Below, one piece after another: positions 7,190 through 31,570 of a stretch of 31,570 nt of DNA (position 1 is its first letter; each line of letters begins with the position of its first letter). Under the pieces are notes generated by a model that was given only the letters and a program-made list of their open reading frames with translations, was not told the DNA's origin and made no database searches. The DNA lies in the IMG/VR virus record IMGVR_UViG_3300043444_000170, positions 1 through 31,570 of that record; one strand, 5' to 3'. Position numbers and translations under genes: made by a program. This stretch comes from a virus.

Positions 7190-7201
7190 TAACTAGCTCT
7201 C

Positions 7202-7217
7202 GCTTAGAAAACTAAGC
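7202..7217 (+). repeat. Short hairpin preceding the capsid terminator
   Basis: GCTTAG-AAAA-CTAAGC, a perfect 6-bp stem with a tetraloop, just after the capsid stop codon and immediately 5' of the terminator stem. It may protect the 3' end of the abundant capsid mRNA. Confidence 0.7.
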
Positions 7218-7218
7218 T

Positions 7219-7263
7219 GAGAGGGTCGGTAGATGCGTAGGTCTATCGGCCCTCTCTTTTTTT
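7219..7263 (+). terminator. Intrinsic terminator after the capsid gene
   Basis: 14-bp stem 7219-7232 / 7243-7256 with two G-U type pairs, followed by seven T residues. The right arm overlaps the last codons and stop codon of the antisense HNH gene, so the hairpin is partly built from its coding sequence. Confidence 0.9.
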
Positions 7264-7794
7264 ACGCCATTCAGTAATGAGCAGATCGCGTTTTTGACTG
7301 TTACACGATTTGCAAGCTGGCACTAAGTTACCAATAGAATCTGCGCCACCTCGTGCGATTGGCACTACATGATCTACGGTTATGCGTTCGTGATTTCCGC
7401 AATAAAAACAGGGCTTAGAAAGTAAGTCGCGCAATTCTTTTTTCGTAATTAGAAAGATGCCGTTTGCCCTTAGTCTGGCTCGTCTTCTGCGTGAATCTGC
7501 CGCAATTTTCAAATGATTACGCTTCCGCGAAATGGCCATATATTTTTTGTGCAATTCGGGATTTTGTTGAATTCGTTTTGTGGCATAGTCAATACGACTT
7601 TCGCGGTTTTTTAGGTATTGTTCACGCTGTTCAATCTTTATTGCTTCCCTGTTTTTTGCACGGTATTCAGCACGTTGGAAACGGCGGCACTCAAGGCATT
7701 GACTATCTAAGCCCATTGACTTAGTGCGATTTTTGCCAAACTGATCTGTTGGCTTGGTTTGCTTGCACCGGCTACAAGCTTTATACTCGGTCAT
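7243..7794 (-). CDS. HNH endonuclease, free-standing (homing-type)
   Basis: 183 aa on the minus strand, between the capsid gene and the next unit. The N-terminus has a zinc finger (Cys7, Cys10, Cys33, Cys36); a long Lys/Arg-rich helical middle follows; the C-terminus is an HNH domain with CFYC (129-132), VDHVVPIARGG (140-150), Asn156 and CKSCN (161-165). Such isolated, antisense, A/T-richer nuclease genes are usually selfish homing elements; a second HNH gene at 21106 shares its leader. AGGAAGG upstream supports the ATG at 7794. An 8-codon upstream ORF overlaps the start as ATGA. Target and activity are unknown. Confidence 0.88.
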   Translation of the reverse strand: MTEYKACSRCKQTKPTDQFGKNRTKSMGLDSQCLECRRFQRAEYRAKNREAIKIEQREQYLKNRESRIDYATKRIQQNPELHKKYMAISRKRNHLKIAADSRRRRARLRANGIFLITKKELRDLLSKPCFYCGNHERITVDHVVPIARGGADSIGNLVPACKSCNSQKRDLLITEWRKKREGR

Positions 7795-7853
7795 ATCGAA
7801 CCTTCCTGTTCGGTCATGCCCCTGGATGTTTCCGCATCGCAGGGGTTTCTTCT
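7791..7853 (-). promoter_or_regulatory. Structured leader of HNH gene 1 with upstream mini-ORF
   Basis: Read on the minus strand: ATAGAAGAAA, then a hairpin CCCCTG-C-GATG-CGGAAA-CATC-CAGGGG (7845 down to 7819), then C, then a mini-ORF encoding MTEQEGSI (7817 down to 7791). Its TGA overlaps the HNH ATG as ATGA and contains the AGGAAGG ribosome binding site. The same layout with compensatory stem changes occurs at 21046-21109 before the second HNH gene. No T-run follows, so it is not an intrinsic terminator. Confidence 0.8.
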
Positions 7854-7895
7854 ATTCTATTCCCGACACGCCAGAAAAAAAGTTTTGTAAAAGTG

Positions 7896-7967: not shown

Positions 7968-8102
7968 ATGTTCTTCAAGACCGAAACTGTTTTCAAGGTT
8001 CTAGCAACTCAGGCAGCTGCTGAAAAGTATGTGGCACGCTGGTTCGCTAACGGTGGCGTTCGTATCGAAGCCATCAACGGAAAGTTTTTTGTAGTCGCAT
8101 AA
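7968..8102 (+). CDS. 44-aa protein, independent transcription unit, unknown
   Basis: ATG 7968 is preceded by AAAGGGAAAAA, a purine-rich ribosome binding site. The protein (MFFKTETVFKVLATQAAAEK...) looks like a compact alpha/beta unit: a hydrophobic first strand, an Ala-rich helix, then two short strands ending GKFFVVA. It has its own TTGACG/AATACT promoter and is followed by two hairpins, the second an intrinsic terminator. A tiny gene with private promoter and terminator within the structural region looks like a moron expressed outside the late programme. No family recognised. Confidence 0.8.
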   Translation: MFFKTETVFKVLATQAAAEKYVARWFANGGVRIEAINGKFFVVA

Positions 8103-8139: not shown

Positions 8140-8170
8140 CCCCGGCACAAACCCCCTGTGTCGGGGTTTT
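8140..8170 (+). terminator. Intrinsic terminator of the 44-aa unit
   Basis: Stem CCCCGGCACA (8140-8149) / TGTGTCGGGG (8157-8166) with one G-U pair, followed by TTTT. It lies 17 nt before the glycosyltransferase start, leaving only about 20 nt for the next promoter. Confidence 0.85.
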
Positions 8171-8186
8171 CTGCTATCGTGAAACC
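8160..8186 (+). promoter_or_regulatory. Candidate leaderless promoter of the glycosyltransferase operon
   Basis: GTCG (8160-8163, inside the terminator right arm), 11 nt, TATCGT (8175-8180), 6 nt, ATG 8187. No ribosome binding site precedes this ATG. Same spacing as at 119, 25218, 25486 and 27569. Confidence 0.5.
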
Positions 8187-20717: not shown

Positions 20718-21004
20718 CGGATAGGCCGCCGGTTTTTCAATAGCTCTTTTCTTTCTTCTGGGGTTGTGCCAGCCCAAATCCCGTATTCTTCTCGCGCTTC
20801 TAACGCGTAGTCTAGGCACGCTGCCGCGAACGGGCATTGTTCGCACACGCTTTTCGCTAGCATTTGTGTAATTTTTTGGGCGTATTCAAAGCCTTCCGCA
20901 AAAAATAATTCTGGGCGTGCTTCGCAGGGTGGTTTGTTTCCTGTTTCGCGAATTTGGTGCGATAGTGTCCGGTATTTCATGGCGGCACGATCTGTAACAA
21001 ACAT
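20714..21004 (-). CDS. whiB: WhiB-family transcriptional regulator
   Basis: 96 aa with the WhiB signature: Cys27, Cys54, Cys57 and Cys63 as Fe-S ligands (CEQC, then PFAAAC), the GIWAG turn (75-79), TTPEER, and a basic C-terminus KELLKNRRPIR. AAAGGAGAACC precedes the ATG. WhiB proteins act by binding the primary sigma factor in actinobacteria; phage copies such as that of mycobacteriophage TM4 can repress host whiB genes and cause superinfection exclusion. It is the clearest evidence for an actinobacterial host. The promoter overlaps the leader of the divergent HNH gene. Confidence 0.93.
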   Translation of the reverse strand: MFVTDRAAMKYRTLSHQIRETGNKPPCEARPELFFAEGFEYAQKITQMLAKSVCEQCPFAAACLDYALEAREEYGIWAGTTPEERKELLKNRRPIR

Positions 21005-21041
21005 GGTTCTCCTTTATTTAACGACTGATGCCGTCTAGACT

Positions 21042-21071
21042 TGTATAGCAGAAACCCCCGCGTTGCGTCAA
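21042..21071 (-). promoter_or_regulatory. whiB promoter, overlapping the HNH 2 leader
   Basis: Minus strand TTGACG (21071-21066), 18 nt, TATACA (21047-21042). TTGAC-N20-ATAC matches the promoters at 7896 and 12808. The -35 is exactly the hexaloop (CGTCAA on the plus strand) of the HNH 2 leader hairpin, so divergent transcripts compete for the same DNA. Confidence 0.65.
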
Positions 21072-21109
21072 CAACCGGGGGCATGACCGAACAGGAAGGT
21101 TCGATATGA
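21046..21109 (+). promoter_or_regulatory. Structured leader of HNH gene 2 with upstream mini-ORF
   Basis: ATAGCAGAAA, then the hairpin CCCCCG-C-GTTG-CGTCAA-CAAC-CGGGGG (21055-21081), C, then a mini-ORF encoding MTEQEGSI (21083-21109) whose TGA overlaps the HNH ATG as ATGA. From the mini-ORF through the ATGA it is base-for-base identical to the leader at 7791-7817 (minus). Stem differences from that copy (C-G for T-A, T-A for A-T) keep pairing. Confidence 0.82.
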
Positions 21110-21594
21110 GAAAGTATAGACTCCAACACGCCAACATTCAGGATTTGTTGCGGTTCACAAAACGCGATGCAAATGGCTGTTTCATATGGCAGAAAAACTT
21201 AGACAAAGATGGCTACCCCTATTTGTGGATTGACAGCCATTCAACACGCGCACATAGTTACGTATGCGCTCTCATAAATGGGCCACGGCCTGAAAAAGCT
21301 GTCACCTTACATTCTTGCGATAATCCTTCTTGCATTAACCCCGATCACCTTAGTTGGGGGTCGCAACGCCAAAACATTCTGGATAAATTCGCTCGTGGTC
21401 GCGCCAATCTGCCAACTGGCTCTAATCATGCCTCCGCAAAATTGACTGAACGGATTGTGTCACATATGCGTACGGCGCATTACGGTCAAGGTCAATCCAT
21501 AAATAGCCTGGCGAAACAGTATTGCGTCAGTTACGGTACAGCGTATGAGGCAGTTAAAGGTACTACGTGGAAAAATGTAGGTGGTCTACCGTAA
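21106..21594 (+). CDS. HNH endonuclease with C-terminal HTH (HNH_3 type)
   Basis: 162 aa. An N-terminal FIWQKNLDKDGYPYLWIDSH segment, then VTLHSCDNPSCINPDHLSWG with the HNH_3 pattern C-x4-C-x4-H, followed by NLPTGSNHASAKLT and a helix-turn-helix (INSLAKQYCVSYGTAYEAVK). It is typical of free-standing homing endonucleases. It is not homologous in overall architecture to the HNH at 7243 yet shares its leader. The gene is more A-rich than its neighbours. Its TAA stop forms the TAA of the TAAATT box before the next gene. Confidence 0.88.
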   Translation: MRKYRLQHANIQDLLRFTKRDANGCFIWQKNLDKDGYPYLWIDSHSTRAHSYVCALINGPRPEKAVTLHSCDNPSCINPDHLSWGSQRQNILDKFARGRANLPTGSNHASAKLTERIVSHMRTAHYGQGQSINSLAKQYCVSYGTAYEAVKGTTWKNVGGLP

Positions 21595-21603
21595 ATTGCA
21601 GTT
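21577..21603 (+). promoter_or_regulatory. Candidate leaderless promoter of the recombination operon
   Basis: TAAATT (21592-21597), including the HNH stop codon, then 6 nt and ATG 21604. No ribosome binding site. The upstream box is incomplete (GTAG at 21577-21580 instead of GTC[A/G]). Confidence 0.35.
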
Positions 21604-31044: not shown

Positions 31045-31377
31045 ATGAAGTTTCGCCGACCCTGCCTAGACTGCGGACAACTAGGCGAACCAGGCGAATC
31101 ACGCTGCCCTACACACCAGCAACGTATAGACGGCCTCAACGCATTACGACGAGAACAAATAAAGAAACAGTCAGGGCAATACTCAGGCAGCTATCAACGT
31201 CTAGCCCGAATAATCCGTGCCACCGCACAAACCTGCCATTTATGTGGCGAAGGGCCACGCTACGGCGATCCATGGGAAGCCGACCACCTCAACCCCGGCA
31301 CACCAGTCACCTCACTATCAGACCTCGCACCAGCACACCGATCCTGCAACGGTGCTAGAGGCAACAAACCCCTATAG
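31045..31377 (+). CDS. HNH endonuclease of the packaging cassette
   Basis: 110 aa. An N-terminal zinc motif CLDCGQLGEPGESRCPTH, then CHLCGEGPRYGDPWEADHL and LAPAHRSCNGARGNKP form the HNH core (CxxC, DH, H, CN). Such HNH genes beside terS-terL-portal are required for cos cleavage in phages such as HK97 (gp74). On the circular genome it lies about 130 bp upstream of the small terminase, so it belongs to packaging, not to the selfish HNH genes. Strongly A/C-rich coding strand. Confidence 0.88.
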   Translation: MKFRRPCLDCGQLGEPGESRCPTHQQRIDGLNALRREQIKKQSGQYSGSYQRLARIIRATAQTCHLCGEGPRYGDPWEADHLNPGTPVTSLSDLAPAHRSCNGARGNKPL

Positions 31378-31570
31378 ACCCCCCTCCCCTAGATACGGGG
31401 GGTGGGTGATTCACACAGCAGCACAACGAAGAACACCCCGACCGCACTTTCTCGCACCTATCCGCGGTTGAAACCGTTTGAAGTCGGGCGGTTTTGTTAG
31501 GCTGGTTGTATGGGTAATCCACCGAAGCCAGCTGAGCTAAAGATTTTGCAGGGCAATCCTGGTAAGCGTG
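31365..31570. repeat. Terminal redundancy, copy 2
   Basis: Matches 1-206 with differences at 31447 (C), 31466 (G) and 31471 (A). In this copy CGGTT-GA-AACCG (31465-31476) is a perfect inverted repeat that copy 1 lacks. Confidence 0.95.
31510..31570 (+). CDS. terS: Terminase small subunit, 5' part (same gene as 146-586)
   Basis: First 20 codons of the small terminase gene, cut by the window end. They are identical to 146-206. This is the second view of the same circular locus, not a truncated duplicate. Confidence 0.9.
   Translation, partial: MGNPPKPAELKILQGNPGKR

Follow-up and report, generated by a model that had tools for sequence, protein, structure and literature searches.

The window, that is, the whole 31.6-kb virus record analysed (31,570 nucleotides), carries a 206-bp terminal direct repeat (positions 1-206 and 31365-31570, 99% identical). 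Judging from this repeat, the record probably corresponds to a complete genome of about 31.4 kb. Two HNH genes lie on opposite strands, with a leader common to both. HNH1 (21106-21594, + strand) encodes a homing-type endonuclease of 162 amino acids belonging to the HNH_3 family (PF13392). HNH2 (7243-7794, - strand) encodes an HNH/endonuclease VII-like protein of 183 amino acids (PF01844, phrog_1035). These protein family matches bear out the original prediction that the two nucleases are unrelated. A repeat search of the window returned both leaders as a single 86-nt inverted pair, 83% complementary, and a 32-nt block extending from GGGGC to the HNH start is base-identical in the two copies.

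Folding of both leaders gave two hairpins. P1 is located at 21055-21081 (+) in copy A, upstream of HNH1, and at 7845-7819 (-) in copy B, upstream of HNH2. Its geometry is the one that had been described, with 6 bp, an unpaired C, 4 bp and a 6-nt loop, and the compensatory stem changes reported between the two copies proved real on inspection. P1 of copy A is a 5′ UTR hairpin on the gene strand, and on the antisense strand it reads as a terminator hairpin followed by TTTCTGCTA. With copy B, P1 is followed on the + strand by TTTCTTCTATTCT, which is also terminator-like. P2 is identical in copy A (21088-21103) and copy B (7797-7812). Its gene strand reads CGAAC-AGGAAG-GTTCG, with the Shine-Dalgarno sequence in the loop; on the antisense strand, P2 of copy A is extended by an A-U and a G.U pair. 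Sense -10 boxes resembling those of relatives (see below) were found upstream of P1, TAGACT in copy A (21036-21041, +, 13 nt upstream) and TAGAAT in copy B (7854-7859, -, 8 nt upstream). Within codons 3-5 of each nuclease gene, the opposite strand carries the -10 box TATACT (21113-21118, -, in HNH1; 7782-7787, +, in HNH2). A third look-alike of the ATAG(C)AGAAA-hairpin arrangement, at 8154-8177, was rejected as a family member; it is the + strand terminator (a hairpin, then TTTTCTGCTAT) of a small gene ending near 8102.

The occurrence of the leader was surveyed with a covariance model built from 14 viral elements, none of them from the window. This model matched the window leaders with 55.9 and 56.9 bits (E = 3.9e-17 and 1.8e-17) and gave 102 matches in 99 sources in the viral/phage set. 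A structural pattern search had a yield of nine viral loci, and a wider pattern of 106 viral stretches. When genome contigs were scanned with a pattern, the matches listed were mostly due to chance, so our conclusions rest on the covariance model. By this model, 26 of the 41 sampled Streptomyces genomes contain the element, with up to 11 copies each. In the order of Microbacterium it was found in 5 of 59 genomes. In the order of Acinetobacter, one of 57 genomes had a match, that one being the seed, and the other 56 had none. An Acinetobacter locus (L448, E = 2e-7) and an isolate phage (L007) show P1-like hairpins, then CATGACC, before a gene starting MNTK; each may be a distant relative or a chance resemblance outside actinobacteria. 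Named phages carrying the element are Arthrobacter ArV2, Bauer, Persistence and Pitbull, Gordonia Getalong, and Microbacterium Footloose and vB_MoxS-R1, in none of which it is annotated as an RNA. Altogether, about 150 divergent and covarying relatives were obtained, and the leader is clearly not limited to two copies without covariation.

Other searches were negative within their scope. Megablast of the first 25 kb of the window against phages gave no match, and blastn of PLSDB plasmids with one query did not retrieve the element. No Rfam 15 family reached its curated score in window positions 20900-21300 or in seven related loci. HNH-associated RNA-guided families (HEARO/omega RNA) gave no Rfam match for the element, and rdlD scored only 14.9 bits against it, for a gathering score of 50.

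The covariance-model search had been proposed together with a list of the genes downstream, and this list shows diverse nucleases and Streptomyces small proteins. Among 64 representative downstream proteins, most are HNH nucleases (HNH, 26; HNH_5, 25; HNH_3, 10; the counts overlap), and the others include T5orf172/GIY-YIG, RusA, DNA methylase and DUF6221 proteins. The leader was present in 20 of 20 close HNH2 homologues (loci L092-L111). An association with HNH_3 as such was rejected, since none of 80 HNH1-homologue loci from other phages carries the element. On Streptomyces chromosomes (L440-L487), multi-copy elements precede small unrelated proteins. Several of these Streptomyces loci, identified by eye, adjoin XRE-DUF397 pairs; a paper rich in mentions of such pairs deals with bidirectional terminators.

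The relatives define a conserved order on the gene strand: a sense -10 box, an A-rich tract, P1, CRTGACC, P2 and the start codon. The P1 consensus consists of CCCCNG, an unpaired C, 4-5 bp, a loop of about 6 nt and CNGGGG, and P2 has 4-6 bp with the Shine-Dalgarno sequence in its loop. In the viral set, 278 cells of the stems have both sides changed as compared to 64 in shuffles; none of 500 shuffles reached this value and slid controls gave at most 40. The CCCC/GGGG core was preset by the search patterns, so these counts concern only the remaining pairs, several positions of which show all four Watson-Crick pairs. The covariation was replicated (126 as compared to 37) in a second set dominated by Streptomyces chromosomes, selected mostly by the covariance model alone. 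The mini-ORF encoding MTEQEGSI, which had been considered a shared part of the leader, is present in the window but did not hold in the family. Within 74 non-redundant relatives, the corresponding codon is ATG in 26 and GTG in 48, all three frames with respect to the gene are represented (33/28/13), and 11 have the ATGA overlap. Control by a leader peptide was rejected on these counts: the mini-ORF is incidental and P2 is the conserved part of this region.

We then considered which strand folds. The mismatches in gene-strand stems are nearly all A.C, with 59 cells as compared to 6 for G.U in the viral set, and hardly any other mismatch was observed. The chromosome-dominated set behaved similarly (44 A.C and 5 G.U). 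Counted per element over the interior pairs of 56 non-redundant elements, A.C occurred in 18 and G.U in 1 (sign test, p = 8e-5); over the P1 interior of 53 elements of the chromosome-dominated set, the numbers were 17 and 1. These counts score related elements separately, after reduction to representatives at 45% protein identity, and the covariance model was made on the gene strand, a bias against the antisense result. Since an A.C on one strand is a G.U on the opposite one, the selected fold belongs to the opposite strand, and it is most likely the antisense strand that is structured. Raw folding energies, not matched for composition, favor the antisense strand in 61 of 75 elements. For the two window copies the values, likewise not matched, are -26.0 and -24.9 kcal/mol on the antisense strand as compared to -22.5 and -21.4 kcal/mol on the gene strand. 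P1 also resembles an iron-responsive element, of which an unpaired C, 5 bp and a 6-nt loop are features; this candidate was set aside, the conserved strand being the other one.

Beyond the start codon, coding-sequence positions A8, T12 and A13 are kept whatever amino acid is encoded. Read on the other strand they form TANNNT, a bacterial -10 box. In the viral set, 57 of 75 elements have this backward box at a single register within codons 3-5 (background mean 0.35, maximum 5), which leaves about a quarter of them without an exact TANNNT at the expected place; in the chromosome-dominated set, 35 of 53 have it there (background 0.04, maximum 1). The box was found across unrelated proteins and leaves a mark on their N-termini, with residue 3 mostly E/D/Q/K/N/H and residue 5 mostly T/K/S/I. 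In two families in which the start codon has moved (L348/L362/L291; L367), the distance between the box and P2 has shifted by no more than 1 nt. The antisense -35 region is weak, with a mean of 2.91 matches out of 6 as compared to at most 2.81 at shifted positions. The conserved box points to a putative promoter, on the opposite strand, of the antisense RNA's own. At the other end, the A-rich tract corresponds on the antisense strand to a pyrimidine/U tail after P1 (positions +1 to +4: T 95%, Y 92%, Y 97%, T 71%). A P1 hairpin with such a tail is a candidate intrinsic terminator for the predicted 3′ end, the U tail being short in GC-rich members. On the gene strand, 41 of 72 elements have a TANNNT at a distance of 7-16 nt upstream of P1 (controls, 2-10), and 18 of 72 have TAGA[AC]T (controls, 0-1).

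Overall, the data suggest that the element, which extends over the leader and codons 1-5, is most likely a gene for an antisense RNA and not primarily a structured mRNA leader. From wobble polarity, folding and the promoter and terminator signals, antisense RNAs of about 60 nt are predicted at 21046-21105 on the - strand (gene A; 5′ end near 21105, 3′ end near 21046) and at 7795-7853 on the + strand (gene B). We consider it likely that the element is a portable module in which face-to-face promoters produce an mRNA and a two-hairpin antisense RNA of about 60 nt, the latter covering the ribosome-binding site and start codon and repressing the gene. The nuclease mRNA would start near P1, from a sense promoter whose -10 box lies 7-16 nt upstream of this hairpin. 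The opposing promoter, with TANNNT within codons 3-5, would start the antisense RNA near the start codon. This RNA would form both hairpins. In P2, the loop is complementary to the Shine-Dalgarno sequence; P1, together with the pyrimidine/U-rich tail, would end antisense transcription. The P2 loops of the mRNA and of the antisense RNA are complementary and exposed and are therefore a natural starting point for pairing. Pairing, presumably beginning there, would block ribosome entry and keep the nuclease rare. The module would move with the nuclease gene, and other actinobacterial genes would use the same module. In this scheme the conserved structure, the strand polarity, both promoter-like boxes, the tail and the presence or absence of the cassettes are read from the sequence; antisense transcription, pairing and repression are deduced from them, and the RNA ends are predicted.

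More tentatively, the antisense RNAs may also work in trans, dividing mobile nucleases into compatibility groups, with P2 as a specificity code. The two window antisense RNAs have an identical 5′ part, comprising P2 and the anti-Shine-Dalgarno loop, so that each would silence both nuclease genes as well as those of any incoming phage carrying an identical P2. If so, unrelated homing nucleases would be linked by cross-regulation and immunity.

Several features could also be accommodated by a structured 5′ leader of the nuclease mRNA, in which gene-strand hairpins regulate translation in the manner of T4 leaders or riboswitches. The hairpins form on the gene strand too, the Shine-Dalgarno sequence sits in P2, the sense promoters start near P1, and mRNA hairpins are known for T4 homing endonucleases (PMC2988022). 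We regard this explanation as unlikely, however. The near absence of G.U on the gene strand together with tolerance of A.C is the opposite of the pattern required for an RNA folding on that strand, the Shine-Dalgarno sequence lies open in a loop instead of being buried in a stem, and both the backward -10 box in the coding region and the tail beyond P1 are left unexplained. It is slightly more conceivable, though still doubtful, that the antisense RNA exists but works chiefly through transcriptional interference or termination of opposing transcription, P1 shielding the neighbours and pairing exerting little control. Indeed, HNH2 of the window opposes the late operon, P1 points the operon's way, and a relative has a terminator there. 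In Microbacterium phage Footloose, by contrast, the gene runs with the operon, so that P1 points against it. Moreover, a simple terminator would not require P2 and its anti-Shine-Dalgarno loop to be maintained, yet they are conserved and show covariation.

Wobble polarity alone is insufficient against a DNA-level element, for instance a homing or recombination site formed by a bottom-strand single-stranded DNA hairpin, because DNA tolerates G.T pairs too, and the elements do lie at one edge of mobile cassettes. Such a site appears highly improbable, since fixed -10 boxes on both strands and a terminator tail are transcription signals and since the element also precedes Streptomyces genes of small unrelated proteins. 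A further possibility is that this phage recently duplicated one of its leaders, with no broader significance; the 32-nt identical block would agree with this. An exact 28-mer of the leader was likewise absent outside the window in an IMG/VR search, which taken alone would suggest local duplication. Given relatives so numerous and divergent, with strong covariation, we attach practically no weight to this explanation.

An antisense RNA repressing a nuclease gene would have its closest counterpart in IS10, where the 69-nt RNA-OUT keeps ribosomes from binding the transposase mRNA (PMC5006887). Like RNA-OUT (PMC5006887), the predicted RNA is about 60-70 nt long, comes from the opposite strand and would cover the region where translation of a mobile-element enzyme begins, and the promoters oppose each other in both systems. 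As for RNA-OUT, the predicted RNA is encoded opposite its target's translation initiation region, spanning the Shine-Dalgarno sequence and the start codon, and by analogy with IS10 it most likely acts through translational repression. In contrast, the element lacks the RNA-OUT fold and has two hairpins, one of which carries the anti-Shine-Dalgarno sequence in its loop, while the other holds the putative terminator. Its predicted targets are many nuclease families and other genes, in actinobacteria and their phages, and it has no Rfam match. Hairpins control the leaders of T4-like homing endonucleases I-TevI, segB, mobE and seg43(25) (PMC2988022). There, a gene-strand hairpin buries the ribosome-binding site, with the exception of seg43(25), whose hairpin is just upstream of the site (PMC2988022). 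In the present element, conservation favors the antisense strand, and the ribosome-binding site lies in the P2 loop, outside any gene-strand stem, so that membership in the T4 type was rejected. Plasmid and type I toxin-antitoxin antisense RNAs such as CopA, Sok and rdlD are short and structured, as is the predicted RNA, and start pairing between loops, but they act on replication or toxin mRNAs. SAS/ESAS of cluster K mycobacteriophages is, like the element, a motif repeated directly before the start codons of several phage genes; unlike the element, it is described as a short sequence motif.

Homing endonucleases need to be kept rare yet available. To our knowledge, how free-standing ones are restrained outside T4-like phages is largely open, and none of the open-licence papers searched links an antisense RNA to homing nuclease genes of actinophages. 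As judged from its conserved sequence, the element is an unannotated RNA family, absent from Rfam 15 and from these papers. For many nuclease families of actinobacterial viruses, one answer to the problem of restraint may thus be a small cassette-borne antisense RNA whose promoter lies in the first five codons. The presence of the element in named culturable phages and many Streptomyces chromosomes makes this proposal directly testable, and the element offers a compact regulator part for actinobacterial hosts.

The mobility of the two copies was examined by comparison with a phage 94-96% identical to the window (L127/G164), which lacks both cassettes. The HNH2 cassette (7190-7866, -), consisting of the gene and its antisense element, is replaced at the capsid-gene site of this relative by a short terminator, the position of which is occupied by P1 of copy B. 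The HNH1 cassette (21019-21603, +), of the same composition, lies at the WhiB/exonuclease site, where the relative has about 89 nt. With both cassettes absent from the relative, the element lies inside what comes and goes. The proposal of a portable regulatory module traveling with selfish nucleases is therefore retained as regards portability, with many nuclease families and both copies inside a mobile cassette. It is not retained as regards restriction to selfish nucleases or phages (Streptomyces genes have the element too), the mini-ORF, or a structure acting primarily as an mRNA leader. At the capsid-gene site, a terminator follows the stop codon of the major capsid gene by about 20-110 nt in L127-L202 (window 7219-7256). 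Its loop, GCGTAGG and variants, is conserved while the stems change, and the same loop occurs in HNH-occupied loci. Many relatives have a CCTACG-like complement just before the ribosome-binding site of the next gene; the complementarity is slightly above that of shuffles (8.0 as compared to 7.1 bp overall) and reaches 10-11 bp in some.
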